The notes under the pieces: generated by a model
What the model was told of the DNA's origin: nothing
What the model saw: the letters and a program-made list of their open reading frames with translations, nothing else
Databases searched by the model: none
Position numbers and translations under genes: made by a program
Assembly (NCBI GenBank): GCA_035995165.1
Contig: DASYKU010000007.1
Coordinates: 1-36,624 of the forward strand
Direction of reading: 5' to 3'
DNA from: Mycobacteriales bacterium
GTDB lineage: Bacteria > Actinomycetota > Actinomycetes > Mycobacteriales > CADCTP01
DNA: 36,624 nucleotides
Part shown: positions 24,224 to 36,464 of the stretch, piece by piece
How the letters are laid out: each line of letters opens with the position of its first letter
How positions within the stretch are numbered: the stretch's first letter is position 1

Positions 24224-24282
24224 CCCCGCGGCATCCACCCGCCCCCACGGTTCCCGCCCGGATCTCAGTGGCATAGTGAAAG

Positions 24283-24296
24283 CGGAGGTACCTCCG
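24283..24296 (+). promoter_or_regulatory. Perfect 14-bp palindrome upstream of the cox-like operon
   Basis: CGGAGGTACCTCCG is a perfect palindrome, 33 bp before the large-subunit start. It follows a -10-like GCATAGTG (24271-24278). Its position near the likely transcription start would suit a repressor operator; a GGTACC-centred hairpin in the leader is the alternative. Confidence 0.45.
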
Positions 24297-24329
24297 GGTA
24301 CGTCTCCCCGACATCGGCAGGAGGCCTTG

Positions 24330-26603
24330 GTGAGCATCCTCGGGACCCGAGTACTGCGGACCGAAGACCCGAAGTTCCTGACCACCGGGGGCGAGTACAC
24401 CGAGGATCTCGTCGACGAGCGGCTGACCGGGGCCGCGCACGTGTTCTTCGTCCGCTCCCCGGTCGCGCACGCCCGGATCACCGGCGTCGACCTGGACGCG
24501 GTCCGGGCCGCCCCCGGCGTGGTCGCCGCGTACACCGCCGCCGACCTGGCCGACCTGCCGCCGATCAAGCCGGGGATGGGCCTGAAGGACACGATGCCCC
24601 AGACGGTCCTGGCCGGCGACGTGGTCCGCTACGTCGGCGAGCCGGTCGCGATCGTCGTCGTCGAGGACCCGTACCAGGGTGAGGACATGCTCGAACTGGT
24701 CGGCGTCGACTACGACCCGCTGCCGGTGGTGGTCGACATGCGCGACGCCGCCAAGGACGAGATCGTCCTGTTCCCGGAGGTCGGCACCAACACGATCGTC
24801 ACGTACGGCGAGGAGCTCGACGAGCATCTCTTCGACGACTGCGAGGTCGTCGTCACCCGCACGATCCTCAACCAGCGGGTCGCGCCGGCGCCGATGGAGT
24901 CCCGCGCCGCGGCCGCGGTCTGGGGTGCGGACGGCCGGCTGACCACCTGGGTGCCGAACCAGGGCGCGCAGGGCACCAAGGCCGTGCTGGCCGGGATGCT
25001 CAACGTCGACGCGGCCCAGGTGCGCGTCATCACCCCGGACGTGGGCGGCGCGTTCGGCGCGAAGTTCGGCGCCGACCCCGAGCACGCCGCGGTCGCCTGG
25101 GTCGCGAAGGCCCTGGGCCGCCCGGCCCGCTGGGCGGAGACCCGGTACGAGAACCTGCTCGCGATGACCCACGGCCGGGCCCAGTACCAGACCGTGACGA
25201 TCGGCGGCCGGCCCGACGGCACCGTCCTGGCGTACCGGCTGGAGGTGCTGCAGGACGCCGGGGCCTACCCGCGGATCGGTGCGCTGCTGCCGTCGCTGAC
25301 CCGGCTGATGACGCCGGGGACGTACTACTTCCCCAAGGTCGAGTCGTTCGCGCGGTCGGTGGTCACGAACACGACGCCGATCGGGGCGTACCGGGGGGCC
25401 GGGCGGCCGGAGGCGACCGCCGCGGTGGAGCGGGCCATGGACCTGTTCGCGGCCGAGATCGGGATGGACCCGGCCGACGTACGGCGGCGCAACCTGCTCG
25501 AGCCCTTCACCGAGCCGCACGCGAACGGCTTCGGCGCGCTCTACGACAGCGGCGACTACCCGGGCGCGCTGGAACGGGCGCTGACCGCGGCCGGCTACGA
25601 GGAGCTGCGCAAGGAGCAGGCCGAGCGCCGCGCCCGCGGCGACGTCGTCCAGCTCGGCATCGGCCTGGCCAGCTACGTCGAGGTCACCGGCGGCGGCGCG
25701 GAGTCCGGCGCGCCGAACGAGAACGCCACCGTCGAGGTCCACCCGGACGGCAGCGCCACGATCCTCACCGGCACCTCGCCGCACGGCCAGGGTCACCAGA
25801 CGGCCTGGGCGATGCTGGCCAGCGAGCAGCTCGGCATCCCGGTCGAGAAGATCCGGCTCAAGTGGGGCGACACCGACCTCATCCCCAAGGGCGGCGGTAC
25901 CGGCGGGTCGCGCAGCCTGCAGCAGGGCGGCGCCGCGGTCCGGCAGGCCTCGATCGAGCTGCTCGACGTGGCCCGGGAGCGGGCCGCCGACGCGCTCGAG
26001 GCCGACCCGGGCGACCTCCGCTTCGACGTCGACCGGTCCTCGTTCACCGTGGCCGGCGTCGCCCAGGCCGCGGTCTCGCTGGCCTCGCTGGCCGAGCGGG
26101 AGCGGCTGTTCGTGCACACCGTCTTCACCGCGCCCGGGGCGACGTTCCCGTTCGGGGCACACGTCGCGGTGGTCGAGGTGGACACCGAGACCGGCCGGGC
26201 CGTGCTGCAGCGGCTCGTCGCGGTCGACGACGCCGGCGTCGTCCTCAACCCGCTGCTGGCCGACGGCCAGCGGCACGGCGGGATCGCCCAGGGCGTCGCC
26301 CAGGCCCTGCTGGAAGAGGTCGTGTACGACGCCGACGGCAACCCGCTGACCGCGAGCTTCGCCGACTACCCGTTCCTGTCGGCGACCGAGGTGCCCAACT
26401 ACGAGCTGGTCGACATGGTCACGCCGACGACGTACAACCCGCTGGGGGCGAAGGGGATCGGCGAGGCCGGCTCCATCGGCGCCACCCCGGCGGTGCAGAA
26501 CGCGGTCGTCGACGCGGTGTCCCACCTCGGCGTCCGGCACATCGACATGCCCACGTCCCCCCGCACGATCTGGCGGGCCATCGAGGAAGGGAGCGGCCGG
26601 TGA
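24330..26603 (+). CDS. Molybdenum hydroxylase large subunit (CoxL/XDH family, not form I CODH)
   Basis: The product is 757 aa. GTG 24330 has CAGGAGG (24318-24324) upstream. It is the molybdopterin-cytosine-dinucleotide-binding subunit of a three-part hydroxylase. Landmarks: [17 protein letters not shown] at the N-terminus, [11 protein letters not shown], the active-site loop [11 protein letters not shown] (about 352-362), [11 protein letters not shown], and the active-site Glu region [19 protein letters not shown]. True aerobic CO dehydrogenases (form I) carry AYXCSFR with a Cys that binds copper. Here the loop is AYRGAGR, so CO oxidation cannot be assumed; oxidation of an aldehyde, N-heterocycle or other substrate is equally possible. 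The operon order is large, FeS, FAD subunit, with 4-bp overlaps. Confidence 0.95.
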
Positions 26604-27900: not shown

Positions 27901-27911
27901 CCCGTCAGGCC
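27888..27911. terminator. Weak hairpin between convergent cox genes
   Basis: GGCCTGA (27888-27894) pairs with TCAGGCC (27905-27911) around a 10-base loop. It lies in the 25-bp gap between the FAD subunit and the VWA gene, whose stop it includes. It may serve both directions. Confidence 0.4.
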
Positions 27912-29050
27912 GTGCGCAACACCGTGACGAGCTCGGCGAGCGCGGCGGCGGAGTGGCCGGCGACGAGCGCGTCGACGTACGGCAGCGCCGCCACCATCCC
28001 CGCCGTCTCCGGGCTGAACCCGTCCTTGCCCTTGTGCGGGTTGACCCAGACGACCGCGTGGGCGAGCCGGCGCAGCCGCTCGGCCTGCGTCCCGAGCAGC
28101 TCGGCCCCGCCGCGCTCCCAGCCGTCGGAGAAGATCACCACGACCGCGTTGCGGGCCGCCCCGCGCTGACCCCAGAGGTCCAGGAACGCCCGTAAGGACT
28201 CGCCCAGCCGGGTGCCGCCGCTCCAGTCCGGCACGGTCGCGGCCGCCGCCCGCAGCGCCGCCTGGGTGTCCCGCAGCCGCAGCGCCCGGGTGACCCGGGT
28301 CAGCCGGGTGCCGACCGTGAACACCTCGGTCGCGAAAGGACGGACCCGGACCGCGGCGTGCGCGAACAGCAGCAACCACTCCGCGTACGGCGACATCGAG
28401 CCGCTCACGTCCACCAGCAGCACCAGCCGGCGCGGCTTCTCCCGTTGCCGCCAGCGCGCCAGCACCAGCGGCTCCCCGCCGGCCCGCAGCATCGCCCGCA
28501 TCGTGCGGCCCCGGTCGATGCCGGCCCGGCCGCCCGGGCGGCGCCGCCGCGACCGCCGGGTGCCGACCGACGGGGCCAGCAAGGCGATCAGCCGCCGGAG
28601 CTCGGCCCGCTCGACCTCGGTCACCGCGGCCACGTCCCGGGTCCGCAGCACCTCGATCGCGGTCGCCGCGACCCGCTCCACCGCGCCGGTGCCGTCGGTC
28701 CCCGGCCCCGCCCCCAGCGGCGCCTCGACCGGGACGGGGGCCATGACCGGCACCGGCCGGGGCGGCGTCAGCCACTCCGCGAAGACCGCGTCGAAGCGGG
28801 GCAGGTCGTCCGGGTCGGAGCAGAGCGTGAGCCGGGCCGACCAGTAGACCTGGGCCGGGTCGAGCGGGTCGACGTGCGCCAGCGCGCCGACCGCGGCCGC
28901 CAGCCGGGACGCGTCCGCGGCCACCCCGGCCGCCCGCAGCGACCGCGCCAGCCCGGTCAGGCCGCGGACCGGATCCACGCCCGGGCCGGTGCCGGAGCCG
29001 CCGGCCGAGCGGGTGCCCGGGCCGGCGGCCTGGTTCTGGGCGGGGTCCAC
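27905..29050 (-). CDS. VWA-domain protein, CoxE-like
   Basis: The product is 381 aa, GTG start 29048-29050, six bases after the MoxR stop. The C-terminal half is a von Willebrand A domain with the metal-binding DVSGS motif (214-218), SGGTRLGESLRAF and VIFSDGWERGG. The N-terminal part is helical. Such proteins act with MoxR ATPases to mature or insert metal centres; in Oligotropha the CoxD/CoxE pair helps assemble the CO dehydrogenase active site. The convergent location beside the hydroxylase genes supports that role here. Confidence 0.92.
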   Translation of the reverse strand: MDPAQNQAAGPGTRSAGGSGTGPGVDPVRGLTGLARSLRAAGVAADASRLAAAVGALAHVDPLDPAQVYWSARLTLCSDPDDLPRFDAVFAEWLTPPRPVPVMAPVPVEAPLGAGPGTDGTGAVERVAATAIEVLRTRDVAAVTEVERAELRRLIALLAPSVGTRRSRRRRPGGRAGIDRGRTMRAMLRAGGEPLVLARWRQREKPRRLVLLVDVSGSMSPYAEWLLLFAHAAVRVRPFATEVFTVGTRLTRVTRALRLRDTQAALRAAAATVPDWSGGTRLGESLRAFLDLWGQRGAARNAVVVIFSDGWERGGAELLGTQAERLRRLAHAVVWVNPHKGKDGFSPETAGMVAALPYVDALVAGHSAAALAELVTVLRTA

Positions 29051-29055
29051 CCCGG

Positions 29056-29928
29056 TCAGCCCAGCCGGGCCAGCAGGTCCGGGAGCACGTCCCGCTCGAC
29101 CGTGACCTGGTCCTCGCGATACTTCAGCACCGTCCCCAGCGTCGCCGCCGCCGCGGCCGCGTCCAGCTCCCGCGCCCCCAGGATTTGCAGCGCGTACGCC
29201 CAGTCGATCGATTCCGCGATCCCCGGCGGCTTCACCAGCCCGGCCGCCCGCATCGCCCCGACCGCCGCGGCGACCTGAGCCGCCAGCCGCTCGGACAGCT
29301 CCGGCTGGTGCCGCTTGATGATCTCGACCTCCCGATCGAGGTCGGGATGGCTGACCCAGTGGTAGAGGCAGCGCCGCTTGAGCGCGTCGTGCACCTCCCG
29401 GGTCCGGTTGGAGGTGAGCACCACGATCGGCGGCTCGTCCGGCCGGATCGTGCCCAGCTCCGGGATCGTCACCGCGTTGTCGGCCAGCACCTCCAGCAGG
29501 AACGCCTCGAACTCGTCGTCGGCCCGGTCGATCTCGTCGACCAGCAGCACGGACGGGCTGTGCTCCAGGGCACGCAGGATCGGCCGGGCGATGAGGAAGC
29601 GCCGGTCGTACACGGACCGCTCGTCGCTGCCGCCACCCTCGGCCGAGCGCAGGTGCAGCAGCTGCCGCGGGAAGTCCCAGTCGTAGAGGGCCTGGCTGGC
29701 GTCGATGCCCTCGTAGCAGGAGAGCCGGACCAGCTCGGCCCCGGTGAGGTCCGCGAGCGCCTGCGCCAGCGCGGTCTTGCCGACGCCCGGATCGCCCTCG
29801 AGCAGCAGCGGCCGGCGCATCCGGATCGCCAGGTACGCGGCCGTGGCCACGCCCTGGTCCGGCAGGTAGCCGACCGCGTCGAGGGCCCGGGCCAGCTCCC
29901 CGATGTCGGCGAAGTCGCGGAAGCTCAC
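29056..29928 (-). CDS. MoxR-family AAA+ ATPase, CoxD-like
   Basis: The product is 290 aa. Walker A GDPGVGKT (45-52), Walker B LLVDEIDRAD, sensor LTSNRTREV and arginine-rich DALKRRCLYHW are all present. These are standard for MoxR ATPases, which act as chaperones for metal-centre assembly together with a VWA partner (the next gene). The GTG at 29926-29928 has a GGAGGG stretch almost touching it, closer than ideal, so the exact start is slightly uncertain. It probably forms an operon with the CoxE-like gene. Confidence 0.95.
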   Translation of the reverse strand: MSFRDFADIGELARALDAVGYLPDQGVATAAYLAIRMRRPLLLEGDPGVGKTALAQALADLTGAELVRLSCYEGIDASQALYDWDFPRQLLHLRSAEGGGSDERSVYDRRFLIARPILRALEHSPSVLLVDEIDRADDEFEAFLLEVLADNAVTIPELGTIRPDEPPIVVLTSNRTREVHDALKRRCLYHWVSHPDLDREVEIIKRHQPELSERLAAQVAAAVGAMRAAGLVKPPGIAESIDWAYALQILGARELDAAAAAATLGTVLKYREDQVTVERDVLPDLLARLG

Positions 29929-30019
29929 CCCTCCAGCATCACACCGGCCCTCCGGGCCACCCCGTGTGGGTCACCGTGAGGTGCGCCTGTCCCGCATGTC
30001 CGAATCGTAGCCAGCACGA

Positions 30020-30958
30020 TCAGCTCCCGTCCGGGAAACCGCCCCGGTGCGACACCATCGGGTAGCGCGGCAGCACCGCGGCCGGATCCGCGAGCAACGC
30101 CCTCGTCACCGCCGTGTACGGCGGGTGCGCCCGCCAGCCGTCCGGGTGCGGCGTCAGGCCCTGGCGCAGCTTCTCCGGATCCGCCAGCAGGCCTTTCAGG
30201 ACCGCCCGCAGCCGATCGTCCCGCTCGCCGCCGACGAGCCTTCGATATTTCGCCTGGGCCTTCTGGCCCTTCTCGGTGAGCCGGGCGACCCGGGCGACGA
30301 CCGTCACGCAATCGACCCGCTCGAGGAACCCGACCGAGACGCTGACGGCCTCCTTGGACACCCCGGTCCGTACCGGCAGGTCCCGCAGGGCGACCCCGTC
30401 CGGGGTCAGCGCCCGCAGCACGTTCGCGCTCACCGCCAGCGAGAGCCGCGACTCCCGCTCGTAGTCCCGCGCGTACGCCTGCAGGGTCTGGGAGAGCCGG
30501 CCGGGCAAGTCCGGGCCGAGGCCGCGGGTCCACACCGGACGGTCCACACGGGACGGTCCGGCGACCGGCAGGGCCCAGGGCAGGTCGGGATGCTCGCCGA
30601 GCGCGGCCCGCAGCGGGGTGAGGTCGCCGTACCGGACCTCCCAGCGGGCCTCGATCTCCTCCGGGAGACCGGTCCAGACCTTGTTCGCGGCCCGGCCGGC
30701 CCGGGTCAGCGTCACGCCGTCGTCCTCGACGTAGCTCCACCGCTTCAGGCCGCCTAGGTTGACCAGCTTCGCCTGGTCCGCGCCGTCCGGCAGCCAGCGC
30801 AGGTAGTTCTGCCACATCGGCAGGGAGACCAGCCACGGGCCGCGACCGGAGTGCGCCGCCGGGCCGCGCGCCGTCCGGTGCGGCATCCGGTGCTCGAACT
30901 CGTTGTCCAGCTCGATCGTGAACGCGACCAGCACCTGCGACAGCAACCCCGAGATCAC
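30020..30958 (-). CDS. Protein with two winged-helix-like modules (MarR-like C-terminus)
   Basis: The product is 312 aa, GTG 30956-30958, nine bases downstream of the tet-like gene stop, so probably co-transcribed with it. The N-terminal third (PMWQNYLRWLPDG, then LKRWSYVEDDGVTLTRAGR) looks like a winged helix with its wing. A second one, MarR-like, covers about residues 176-242: NVLRALTPDGVALRDL, TGVSKEAVSVSVGFLERVDC, ARLTEKGQKA. There is no membrane segment or enzymatic motif. It may be a transcription regulator, but no ligand or target is visible. I cannot assign a family by name. Confidence 0.82.
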   Translation of the reverse strand: MISGLLSQVLVAFTIELDNEFEHRMPHRTARGPAAHSGRGPWLVSLPMWQNYLRWLPDGADQAKLVNLGGLKRWSYVEDDGVTLTRAGRAANKVWTGLPEEIEARWEVRYGDLTPLRAALGEHPDLPWALPVAGPSRVDRPVWTRGLGPDLPGRLSQTLQAYARDYERESRLSLAVSANVLRALTPDGVALRDLPVRTGVSKEAVSVSVGFLERVDCVTVVARVARLTEKGQKAQAKYRRLVGGERDDRLRAVLKGLLADPEKLRQGLTPHPDGWRAHPPYTAVTRALLADPAAVLPRYPMVSHRGGFPDGS

Positions 30959-30967
30959 CCGGCCACG

Positions 30968-32920
30968 CTAGACCCGGCGGTTCACGTGCAGCAGGTACTC
31001 CTTGCGGTCCAACGGGTTCGCGTCGGTGCGGGACCGGCGCGGCGGCTCCCCCGGCGCCGGCCGGTACGAGTCGAACTCGGACTCCAGCACCGCCTCGCCC
31101 CGGCTCGGCGAGGGCAACGCCCGCTCCAGCTCGTGCAGCCGCGCGGCCGGCACCTCGCCCTCCAGCACCGCCGTCGCACCCAGGATCGCCGAGGCCAGCG
31201 GCACGCCACGGTGCGCGGCCAGTACCGCCGACACCGGGCCGATCGTGTCGGCCGGCAGCTCCAGCCGGAACCGCGCGATCGGCTCCTGCACCCGCGTCCC
31301 GGCCCGGCGCAGCGCCGCCATCAGCACCAACGGGGTCAGCCCGCGGAAGTCGGTGCCGGTGCTGGACATGCTCTTGTCGAACTTCTGGTGGGCGTGGCTC
31401 TGCCGCGGCGCGTAGCCGGAGTGCGTCATCGTGATCACGCAGTCGATCACCTGCCAGCCGTACAGGCCCTGGGCCAGGGTGCGCCGGACGGTGTCCTCGA
31501 CGTTGCGGAAAAACGCGTACGGCATCGAGCCGAGCTCGACCTCCAGCCGGAACCCGACCCCACTGTCCACTGTGGCCGGTTCGACCCGCAGCCCGACCGT
31601 GGCCAGGAACGGGTTCCCCTCGCCCATCAGCTCGTACGCCTCGCCGGTGCCGGTCGGCCGCTCCACGCAGATGGTCGTGGTCTCCCGGAAGGTGACCGCC
31701 AGGCCGTACTCGTCGGCCAGGGTGGCCTGGATGACCTCCTTCTGGACCTCGCCGTAGAGGGAGACGTACACCTCCTGGCGGACGTCGTCCTGGCGCAGGT
31801 CGATCAGCGGGTCCTGCTCGGCCAGCTGGCTGAGCGCCACCTGCAGCGCGGCCCGGTCCTCTCCCTGCTCCGGGACCACGACCGTCTCCAGCGTGGGCGG
31901 CGAGAAGTGCTCGGCCGGACCCGTGCGCGGAATCCCGATCGGGTCGCCGATCCGGATGTCGCGCAGCCCCCAGAGCTTGCCGATCTGTCCCGCGTGGACG
32001 GACGGGCGGGACTCGACGCCGCCGCGCGCGAACACCCCGACGCCGGTGACCTTCTGCTCCCCGTCCAGCCGGTCCCGCACCCGCAGGGTCCCCTCGAACA
32101 ACCGCGCGTACGCGATCTTCTCGCCGGCCGGCCCGCGCTCGACCTTGAAGACCGTGCCGGACACGGGCGCATCCGGATCGCCACCGCCGACCGGGAGCAG
32201 CTCGGCTATCGCCGCGGTCAGCTCGGGTACGCCGGCGCCGGTGATCGCGGAGCCGAAGAACACCGGGTGCACGCGGGCGTCCCGGGTCTGCACCGCCAGC
32301 TCCGTCCGCAACCGTCCGAACGGGACGGACCCGTCCCGGACGTACGCGGCCAGCAGCCGGTCGTCCGATGTGGACAGCCGGCTGAGCAGCCGGCCGGGCA
32401 GCTCCGGGTCATCGACCACCGCGGCGCGCCGGCGGCCTTCGTCCCGGACCGCGGTCATCGGGACCACGGCCGGGGTCAGCCGGTCAACGATCATCCGGAC
32501 CACCCGGTCGGTGTCGGCGCCGCCGCGGTCGATCTTGTTGACGAAGATCAGCGTGGGCAGCGCGAGCCGGCGTAGCGCCCGCATGAGCACCCGCGTCTGC
32601 GGCTGCACGCCCTCGACCGCGGAGACGACCAGCACGGCGCCGTCGAGCACGGACAGGACCCGTTCCACCTCGGCGATGAAGTCCGGGTGCCCGGGGGTGT
32701 CGATGAGGTTGACCGTCACGCCGCCGATCGCGAACGACACCACGGCCGACTTGATCGTGATGCCGCGCCGGCGTTCCAGTGCGAGCGAGTCGGTCTGCGT
32801 GCTGCCGGCGTCGACGCTGCCGATCTCGTCGATCACACCGGCGTCGTGCAGCAGCCGCTCGGTGAGGCTGGTCTTACCGGCGTCGACGTGCGCCAGGATG
32901 CCGAGATTGAGCAGAGACAC
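30968..32920 (-). CDS. TetM/OtrA-like ribosomal protection GTPase
   Basis: The product is 650 aa from GTG 32918-32920, the length and architecture of tetracycline ribosomal protection proteins (EF-G paralogues). GTPase motifs: AHVDAGKTSLTERLL (10-24), ERRRGITIKSA, DTPGHPDFI, and NKID. Domain IV/V shows STGTDFRGLTPLVLMAALRR and AGTRVQEP, corresponding to the ADFR-x-LAP-x-VL region specific to Tet proteins rather than EF-G. It probably displaces tetracycline-like drugs from the 30S subunit, either against environmental drugs or as an intrinsic housekeeping paralogue. Only a poor ribosome binding site (GAGGA, 11 bases upstream) precedes the GTG, and it lies in a hairpin under an overlapping leader ORF. 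No mobile element is nearby. Confidence 0.93.
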   Translation of the reverse strand: MSLLNLGILAHVDAGKTSLTERLLHDAGVIDEIGSVDAGSTQTDSLALERRRGITIKSAVVSFAIGGVTVNLIDTPGHPDFIAEVERVLSVLDGAVLVVSAVEGVQPQTRVLMRALRRLALPTLIFVNKIDRGGADTDRVVRMIVDRLTPAVVPMTAVRDEGRRRAAVVDDPELPGRLLSRLSTSDDRLLAAYVRDGSVPFGRLRTELAVQTRDARVHPVFFGSAITGAGVPELTAAIAELLPVGGGDPDAPVSGTVFKVERGPAGEKIAYARLFEGTLRVRDRLDGEQKVTGVGVFARGGVESRPSVHAGQIGKLWGLRDIRIGDPIGIPRTGPAEHFSPPTLETVVVPEQGEDRAALQVALSQLAEQDPLIDLRQDDVRQEVYVSLYGEVQKEVIQATLADEYGLAVTFRETTTICVERPTGTGEAYELMGEGNPFLATVGLRVEPATVDSGVGFRLEVELGSMPYAFFRNVEDTVRRTLAQGLYGWQVIDCVITMTHSGYAPRQSHAHQKFDKSMSSTGTDFRGLTPLVLMAALRRAGTRVQEPIARFRLELPADTIGPVSAVLAAHRGVPLASAILGATAVLEGEVPAARLHELERALPSPSRGEAVLESEFDSYRPAPGEPPRRSRTDANPLDRKEYLLHVNRRV

Positions 32921-32975
32921 GGAGCGTCATGTCCTCGAGGTAGGTCGAGTGGGTGGACATGAACGCAGCCGTCAT
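32874..32975 (-). CDS. Putative attenuation leader peptide of the tet-like gene
   Basis: ATG 32973-32975 has a perfect AGGAGG (32982-32987) six bases upstream, the best ribosome binding site in this area. It encodes 33 residues (MTAAFMSTHSTYLEDM..., ending in Arg-rich GARRRR) and stops at 32874, 47 bp inside the tet-like gene in another frame. Its strong signals contrast with the weak ones of the GTPase gene. Drug-sensitive leader translation controls many ribosome-targeted resistance genes; I infer the same here. Confidence 0.6.
   Translation of the reverse strand: MTAAFMSTHSTYLEDMTLRVSAQSRHPGARRRR
32928..32961 (-). promoter_or_regulatory. Hairpin masking the tet-like gene's ribosome binding site
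   Basis: On the minus strand CATGTCC (32961-32955) pairs with GGACATG (32934-32928), with an additional inner TCGA/TCGA pairing. The right arm overlaps GAGGA (32936-32932), the only candidate ribosome binding site of the GTG at 32920. The left arm lies in leader codons 5-8. A ribosome paused early in the leader would open it. Confidence 0.5.
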
Positions 32976-33164
32976 CGTGCTCCTCCTGGTCGTCGGTTCC
33001 CCGAGTCGACCAGGGCCCGTTCCCCACCGCAACAGAATTACCGCCCCCGGGGTCGACGCCCGCCGGACCAGCGCCGTCAGGCCTACCGCGTCGGCGTCCT
33101 CCAGCAGCGCCGCGGCGACCGCGTCCGCGCCTGGCCAGCGCCCGCTCGGCGCCTGCCGGGGCGG

Positions 33165-33188
33165 GTGTCGGCCCGCCGGGACCGACAC
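33165..33188 (-). terminator. Hairpin after nuoD
   Basis: GTGTCGG (33165-33171) and CCGACAC (33182-33188) form a 7-bp stem with further inner pairing, 12 bases downstream of the nuoD stop. It should separate nuoD from the tet-like unit. The 33-195 bp that follow up to the leader peptide hold no gene I can defend. Confidence 0.6.
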
Positions 33189-33199
33189 GCCGCCGGGAG

Positions 33200-34537
33200 T
33201 CAGCGGTCGACGCCGCCCATCACGGGGTCGATCGAGGCCAGCGCCGGGATCAGGTCGGCCAGCAGGCCGCCCTCCGTCATCGCCGGGATCGCCTGCAGGT
33301 TGATGAACCCGGGGTCGCGCACGTGCACGCGGAAGGGCCTGGTCCCGCCGTCGGACACCACGTGGTACGCGAGCTGCCCGCGCGGCGACTCGATCTGGGT
33401 GCTGACCTGGCCCGGCGGCACCCGGAACCCCTCGGTGACCAGCTTGAAGTGGTGGATCAGCGACTCCATCGACTGACCCATGATCTTCTTCACGTGGTCC
33501 AGCGAGTTGCCCAGCCCGTCCGGGCCGAGCGCGAGCTGCGCCGGCCAGGCGATCTTGCGGTCGGTGACCATGACCGGGCCGGGCTCCAGCCGGTCCAGCG
33601 CCTGGGTGACGATCCGCAGCGACTGGCGCATCTCCTCCAGCCGGAGCAGGTAGCGCGCGAAGCTGTCGGCCTCGGTCGCCGTCGGCACCTCGAACTCGTA
33701 CGTCTCGTAGCCCATGTACGGCTCCGTCTTGCGCAGGTCCCAGGGCAGCCCGGCCGAGCGCAGGACCGGACCGGTGACACCGAGCGCGAGGCAGCCCTCG
33801 ACCGACAGGTAGCCGACGCCCTGCAGGCGGCGCTTCCAGATCGGCTGGCCGGTGAGCAGCTTGTCGTACTCCGGCAGCTTGCCGTCCAGATAGCTGACCA
33901 GCTGCCGGATCGCCGACTCGGCGCCGGGCGGCAGGTCCTGCGCGATGCCGCCGGGGCGGACGAAGCCGTGATTCATCCGCAGGCCGGTGATCAGCTCGAA
34001 CACGTCGAGGATCTGCTCGCGCTCGCGAAAGCCCATCGTCATCGCGGTGAGCGCGCCGATCTCCATGCCGCCGGCCGCGAGGCTGACGATGTGGGAGGAG
34101 ATCCGGTTGAGCTCCATCAAGATGATGCGGATCGTGTTGGCGCGGCTCGGCGCCTCGATCCCGAGCAGCCGCTCGACCGACAGGCAGTACGCCGTCTCGT
34201 TGAACAGCGGGGACAGGTAGTCCATCCGCGTCACGAACGTCGTGCCCTGCGTCCAGGTCCGGTACTCGGTGTTCTTCTCGATACCGGTGTGCAGGTATCC
34301 GATGACCGGCCGGGCGCTGATGATCGTCTCGCCCTCGAGCTCCAGCACGATCCGGAGCACGCCGTGCGAGGACGGGTGCTGCGGGCCGAAGTTGAGCGCG
34401 ATGCGGTCCTCGCCCGCGGCCTCGGCCAGGAACTCGTTCCAGTCCCCGCCCGCGACCGTGTGCACGCGGCCCTCGGTGGTGTCCCGAGAAGCGGCGTAGA
34501 CGTCCGGTTCCTCGCGATAGGTGTCGCTGGTCGTCAC
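33200..34537 (-). CDS. nuoD: NADH-quinone oxidoreductase subunit D
   Basis: The product is 445 aa from GTG 34535-34537, with GAGGTG (34551-34546) upstream; the longer open frame runs into the divergent gene. It is the 49-kDa peripheral-arm subunit of respiratory complex I, forming part of the quinone pocket with NuoB. Typical regions: [62 protein letters not shown], and the C-terminal DPVMGGVDR. It is apparently intact. No other nuo gene flanks it, which is unusual because nuoA-N normally form one operon. It may be a second copy or part of a split complex I locus. Confidence 0.96.
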
Positions 34538-36075: not shown

Positions 36076-36149
36076 GGCCCCGTAGCGCAGCTGGTTAGCG
36101 TGCCGCCCTGTCACGGCGGAGGTCGCGGGTTCGAGTCCCGTCGGGGTCG
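36076..36149 (+). tRNA. tRNA-Asp (anticodon GTC)
   Basis: 74 nt. Acceptor GGCCCCG pairs with CGGGGTC (36142-36148), with discriminator G. The anticodon stem is CCGCC/GGCGG with loop CTGTCAC, anticodon GTC at 36110-36112. The T arm contains GGTTCGAGTCC. No CCA is encoded. Confidence 0.97.
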
Positions 36150-36150
36150 C

Positions 36151-36224
36151 GGGCAGGTAGCTCAGTCGGTACGAGCGTCCGCCTGAAAAGCGGAAGGTCG
36201 GCGGTTCGACCCCGCCCCTGCCCA
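36151..36224 (+). tRNA. tRNA-Phe (anticodon GAA)
   Basis: 74 nt, one base after tRNA-Asp. Acceptor GGGCAGG pairs with CCTGCCC (36217-36223), discriminator A. D stem GCTC/GAGC, anticodon stem TCCGC/GCGGA with loop CTGAAAA, anticodon GAA at 36185-36187. T stem GGCGG/CCGCC with TTCGACC loop. No CCA is encoded. Confidence 0.97.
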
Positions 36225-36464
36225 CCCTTCTTGTGGTGCGTCTTCCCAGCTCACTGCCCTTACGGGCTCGTGTCCGGCGTTCTCCGCCGTTGACCCTTGG
36301 TCCCCGTCGCAGACCCCGTTTCGCCGCTGCCTGTTGCACGTGGAGCGCACGCGGCCCGCCCCTTGGCCGGCCGTCTCCCGTTTCCCCCGACAGGCGGGGC
36401 CGCCCGGTGGGCTAACACCGAACGGCCCCTTGATCCCGCACCTTCCTTGAAAGGGCGAGACCCA
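36225..36464. other. Noncoding stretch after the tRNA pair
   Basis: These 240 bp contain no ORF I consider real; open frames here are antisense to the tRNAs or Arg/Pro-rich. Composition is less coding-like (T-rich near 36225-36300). No att-like direct repeat of a tRNA 3' end is seen within the window. Confidence 0.5.

Follow-up and report, generated by a model that had tools for sequence, protein, structure and literature searches.

What switches on a gene for a ribosomal-protection GTPase whose weakly marked start is crossed, in another reading frame, by a short open reading frame (ORF) with a strong Shine–Dalgarno (SD) sequence of its own? The question is raised by the minus strand of the window, the whole 36,624-nucleotide stretch of DNA analysed here, along which a WblC-like promoter, the motif AGGAGG, a 33-codon leader ORF, and the GTG of a 650-residue GTPase gene follow one another. 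A preliminary description had read this arrangement as a translational attenuator. Here, we weigh that reading against its rivals.

The locus and its GTPase gene

The features on which the argument depends are the following:

33004–33041, minus strand: predicted promoter of the WblC/WhiB7 type, matching the consensus at 11/13 scored positions and made up of GTAATT (33041–33036), 3 bp, the −35 element TTGCGG (33032–33027), 17 bp, and the −10-like element TCGACT (33009–33004)
32982–32987, minus strand: leader SD AGGAGG, read directly in the sequence, 6 nt before the ATG
32874–32975, minus strand: leader ORF of 33 codons plus TAA, overlapping the GTPase gene out of frame by 47 nt
32955–32962, minus strand: 5′ arm of the hairpin, TCATGTCC, in leader codons 5–7, predicted from fold and covariation
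32927–32934, minus strand: 3′ arm of the hairpin, GGACATGA, including part of the GTPase SD, predicted from fold and covariation
32932–32936, minus strand: GAGGA, the sole SD of the GTPase gene, 11 nt from its GTG and predicted to be fully paired
32876–32878, minus strand: GGT codon of GTPase Gly15, the T of which is base 1 of the leader TAA stop
30968–32920, minus strand: Otr(A)-like translational GTPase of the ribosomal-protection type, 650 aa, with its GTG start at 32920

The product of the leader ORF is MTAAFMSTHSTYLEDMTLRVSAQSRHPGARRRR; it starts at ATG 32975 (MTAAF...) rather than at the internal ATG 32960 (MSTHS...) and stops at TAA 32876–32874. In the GTPase frame, a TGA stands directly upstream of GTG 32920, so that the gene can have no start further up. 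The preliminary description was thus accurate both in seeing a leader led by AGGAGG (32987–32982) run over the GTPase start in a different frame and in placing the only, weak ribosome-binding site of the GTPase gene (GAGGA, 32936–32932) inside a hairpin formed with leader codons, here codons 5–7.

The same description had called the gene a Tet-type ribosomal-protection gene; the type stands, although the product does not reach the cut-offs of NCBIfam. Its top model there is Otr(A) (NF000120), at 707.7 bits against a curated cut-off of 900, and the general ribosomal-protection model (NF012153) scores 659.4 bits against a cut-off of 775. Pfam GTP_EFTU, EFG_III, EFG_IV, and EFG_C exceed their cut-offs and EF-G_D2 lies under its own, an EF-G-like architecture, and the nearest solved structures in the PDB are Tet(O) and Tet(M) (E about 1e-104), far ahead of EF-G. 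Because Otr(A) is the best NCBIfam model and Tet(O) and Tet(M) are the closest structures, we regard the product, by descent, as a ribosomal-protection GTPase of the Otr(A)-like kind, with resistance as a putative function. It is the single gene of its type in its own genome, and a close copy was absent from the one further species of its genus that was analysed.

Other genes of the window are noted for completeness. A gene for NADH-quinone oxidoreductase subunit D (33203–34480, minus strand) seems to stand alone, because it is the sole NuoD match above the family cut-off in the genome and NuoB is encoded on other contigs. The regions 27905–30836 (minus strand) and 24276–26603 (plus strand) encode a CoxE-like VWA protein, a MoxR/MadB-like AAA ATPase, a molybdopterin dehydrogenase large subunit, and a 303-aa ORF without a family match, a group that looks like a maturation cluster of the carbon-monoxide-dehydrogenase type. 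Adjoining genes for tRNA-Asp and tRNA-Phe occupy 36076–36226 (plus strand).

The published WblC consensus consists of GAAAWY, a −35 element TKGMNN, a 16–19 bp spacer, and TANNNT, and the tetM gene of S. coelicolor is a direct, tetracycline-induced WblC target (PMC7157823). In the window, the −10 element of the predicted promoter ends 28 nt before the leader ATG; across 142 leader-bearing loci, the best promoter score averages 9.7, as against 5.4 in shuffled sequence. The predicted transcription start (about 32997, some 20 nt before the leader ATG) lies upstream of the leader, which would remove the objection, foreseen in the preliminary description, that the transcript might begin downstream of 32975. 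Five WhiB proteins are encoded in the genome, one of them (on contig C96) combining the GVWGGE motif with an RGRP AT-hook at its C terminus, as is typical of WblC/WhiB7; its action at the putative promoter is a prediction.

Two other kinds of regulatory element were considered and set aside. Attenuation through a terminator is out, there being no terminator-like site in 32700–33300 and the leader and GTPase ORFs overlapping; a described RNA family is out as well, the two tRNAs being the only matches in the window at the gathering score of Rfam 15.

The leader, its stop, and the hairpin in homologous loci

Homologous genes were gathered from related genomes and a named genome collection (168 non-redundant loci, including Tet(M)-type genes), and leaders were found by simple SD rules. 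An SD-preceded leader beginning with ATG CGN was present at 138 of these 168 loci, in an identical frame relative to the GTPase in 136 of the 138, with lengths that varied by whole codons; the leader is therefore conserved upstream of related GTPase genes. When ORFs were selected on SD strength and start codon alone (169 loci), 97 of the 100 obtained lay in the frame seen in the window and 89 had arginine at codon 2. As a like-for-like control, an SD-preceded out-of-frame ORF over the start was sought with a strict detector in 165 other genes from the collected loci and found in one. The same detector was positive at 84 of 132 loci of the OtrA set, which had been preselected for having a leader. 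Because the loci share descent, nominal p-values are optimistic, and more caution is built into the tests that use clusters or the tree. The notion that the leader is an N-terminal extension of the GTPase, or a frameshifted start of it, is ruled out by the constant frame offset in 136/138 leaders together with the TGA just upstream of the GTG.

Met-Arg leaders with the same-frame overlap also occur in Rhizobiales, Chloroflexota, and Paenibacillaceae (loci L067, L069, L070, L073, L074, L077, L078, L080, and L096), their later residues being unrelated. In two loci with longer GTPase N-termini, which start 84–87 nt before the anchor (L087 and L093), the stop of the Met-Arg leader has shifted along with the GTPase start, and the overlap stays at about 38–41 nt. 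The overlapping leader is absent from the Tet(M)-type loci (L107–L117).

Codon 2 encodes arginine in 134/142 leaders (CGC 78, CGA 39, CGG 13, and CGT 4). Since arginine is written as CGG in 45% and as CGA in 4% of cases in the same genes, CGA (29%) is over-used and CGG (10%) under-used at this leader position; slow decoding of CGA is one idea of what the arginine codon may do. An arginine at codon 2 is no proof by itself, because its base rate in naive control ORFs is 18% (15/85). In close pairs, codon 2 varies at its third base alone (0/0/0.45 differences), a coding-type pattern is absent from codons 7–16, and the later peptide is not conserved; selection thus appears to act on the identity of the first leader codons, and what it keeps of the remainder is mainly the RNA and the open frame. 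The leader of the window has threonine at codon 2 and is an exception, and the codons that follow (AAFMS) agree with those of its relatives.

The stop of the leader is also placed with some regularity. Relative to the usual start position, it lies 47 nt inside the GTPase gene (GGT AAG, Gly15-Lys16) or, alternatively, 38 nt inside (GTT GAC, Val12-Asp13). Gly15 is written GGT in 95 of the 105 loci without the earlier stop and in none of the 31 with it, GGT making up 10% of the other glycine codons in the same genes and occurring in 6/19 EF-G-like genes at the equivalent position; this codon-usage test was run on a set conditioned on stop position and then repeated without that condition. On the tree, the early stop changes at least 12 times, and the six supported independent pairs divide into four in the predicted direction, none opposite, and two tied (p = 0.125; underpowered). 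The simplest reading of these patterns is selection for a leader stop well inside the GTPase gene, which, we infer, would keep a ribosome that terminates there from initiating anew at the GTPase start.

In the window, TCATGTCC (32962–32955) and GGACATGA (32934–32927) form 8 perfect pairs over the GTPase SD; the local RNA fold is predicted at −47.6 kcal/mol (z = −2.0), and GAGGA has a predicted unpaired probability of 0.00 in free RNA. In a set of 59 equally long leaders, pairing at the six central positions is present in 87% of cells, compared with 24–46% when one arm was slid, and 0/2000 partner shuffles reached 87%. Compensating double changes are found (GGGTCC/GGACTC in L046 and TGGTCC/GGACCA in L057), and clusters without sequence similarity pair the SD with different leader strings (for example, ACUCCUCG/CGAGGAGU and UUCCACG/CGUGGAG). 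Pairing with the leader's own SD arm is stronger than with a foreign one (−9.9 versus −8.2 kcal/mol) and better in 36 of 51 sequence clusters (p = 0.001), and mean SD accessibility is 0.28 in native sequence versus 0.37 with shuffled leaders. An unbiased mutual-information scan for the hairpin yielded no information, since the arms hardly vary within the main clade; slide, shuffle, and arm-swap tests were used instead. The SD-sequestering hairpin suggested in the preliminary description is, by these comparisons, conserved in homologues.

An attenuator reading and its rivals

Since the leader and hairpin recur in about 140 related genes of several phyla, they very probably constitute a real antibiotic-stall switch for the GTPase gene. 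That the switch is, specifically, a translational attenuator operated by drug-stalled ribosomes and controlling the Otr(A)-like ribosomal-protection GTPase is the reading that we consider likely. The comparison brings out the leader ORF, its frame, the arginine at codon 2, the hairpin, the placed stop, and the promoter motif; from these, we infer translation of the leader, a drug as the signal, a stall site, and induction. The WblC-type promoter would yield a short mRNA with the leader as its first ORF. Without drug, ribosomes translating the leader would traverse the GTPase start out of frame and finish 47 nt inside the gene, too far in for re-initiation at the GTPase start, and between ribosomes the hairpin with leader codons 5–7 would mask the GTPase SD. 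A drug, most likely tetracycline, would stall a ribosome early in the leader, so that the 5′ arm would be covered and kept open; with no traffic over the GTPase start and the SD free, the protection protein would be made. Tetracycline arrests ribosomes at start codons (PMC13410324), and because the gene product is of the tetracycline-protection type it is the natural candidate for an inducer; any other drug able to stall early elongation could act in its place.

This attenuator model is weakest where the stall site is concerned. With a ribosome modelled at codons 1–5, mean SD exposure rises from 0.28 (free) to 0.36–0.40, and the larger gain comes across codons 7–10, with 0.57–0.61 at codons 9–10; in the window, modelled exposure goes from 0.00 in free RNA to 0.16 at codon 1 and to at most 0.29 (codon 8). 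Exposure of the SD by an early stall is thus predicted in the expected direction, yet is modest for the earliest stalls.

More tentatively, and with rather less conviction than doubt, we suggest that the sensor might be translation start itself, with tetracycline holding a ribosome on Met-Arg at codon 1/2. The locus might then belong to a distinct and widespread class of attenuators of Otr(A)/Tet-type genes, common to Actinomycetota and to related genes of Chloroflexota, Rhizobiales, and Paenibacillaceae, in which the leader runs obligatorily out of frame over the gene start, traffic means off, and arrest means on.

The layout can be accounted for in other ways. A strong leader SD, a weak and sequestered GTPase SD, and overlapping frames are equally what a constitutively coupled pair of genes would present, leader translation opening the hairpin for GTPase initiation as a positive coupler without any drug sensor. 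Coupled pairs, however, usually have the stop at or near the next start, whereas here it lies mostly 38–47 nt inside the gene, at a selected glycine codon; the near-invariant arginine at codon 2 would be left unexplained, and the gene stands behind a promoter type associated with drug response. We therefore think constitutive coupling unlikely. It is slightly less probable still that repression is due mainly to ribosomes occluding the GTPase start, with a secondary hairpin, and that any slowing of leader initiation or elongation, by drug or starvation, derepresses the gene: the most constant features are indeed the out-of-frame overlap and the placed stop, and early stalls open the hairpin only modestly in the model, but the arms co-vary with the SD across unrelated leaders, which occlusion alone would not require.

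That the WblC promoter alone induces the gene, with leader and hairpin as by-products of GC-rich overlapping sequence, has on its side the direct targeting of S. coelicolor tetM by WblC (PMC7157823) and the many long spurious ORFs of this GC-rich window. It is nevertheless very improbable, given that 164 of 165 control genes lack an overlapping leader and that the arginine codon, the hairpin, and the stop are all conserved. The attenuator reading of the preliminary description is therefore the one that we retain, although the layout that it called classic is so inexactly, since 47 nt of the leader lie within the gene.

Relation to known attenuators

The clinical Tet ribosomal-protection genes have their environmental relatives in genes of the Otr(A) type, on whose induction the searchable papers have little to say. 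A leader with known boundaries, a near-invariant codon 2, and defined hairpin arms opens the induction of Otr(A)-type genes to direct test and would provide a simple, natural means of sensing drugs that arrest ribosomes on the start codon. The preliminary description knew of no account of such control for this actinomycete gene type, and our search of open papers, most subscription journals lying outside it, likewise turned up no report of Otr(A)-type genes carrying an overlapping leader.

Among the Tet proteins, Tet(M) is controlled by transcription attenuation (Su et al. 1992) and Tet(Q) by translation attenuation (Wang et al. 2005), as stated in a later paper (PMC5418344). By that statement, the tet(Q) attenuator of Bacteroides resembles the system proposed here in that a ribosomal-protection gene responds to tetracycline through translational control; it differs in phylum and promoter. 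In the tet(M)/Tn916 attenuator, a homologous GTPase gene is likewise preceded by a leader peptide, but control is described there as acting at transcription via a terminator before the gene (PMC5418344), and the window has no terminator-like site at the corresponding place.

With ermC/ermCL, the window would share the release of a sequestered SD by a stalled leader ribosome, induction being predicted for the window. The stop of ermCL precedes the erm gene, and macrolides are sensed through the nascent peptide. In contrast to ermC/ermCL (PMC13410324; PMC10219788), the window's leader overlaps its gene, and conservation is mainly of Met-Arg. The leaders of Streptomyces ARE5 (ABCF) genes are, similarly, drug-responsive short upstream ORFs of actinomycetes with stalling at the start codon; they have been described as transcription attenuators with terminators in long 5′ regions (PMC12421871), whereas in the window the 5′ region is short, a terminator is not seen, and leader and gene overlap. 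Systems of this kind are known; what appears to be new is the overlapping Met-Arg design, together with its breadth.
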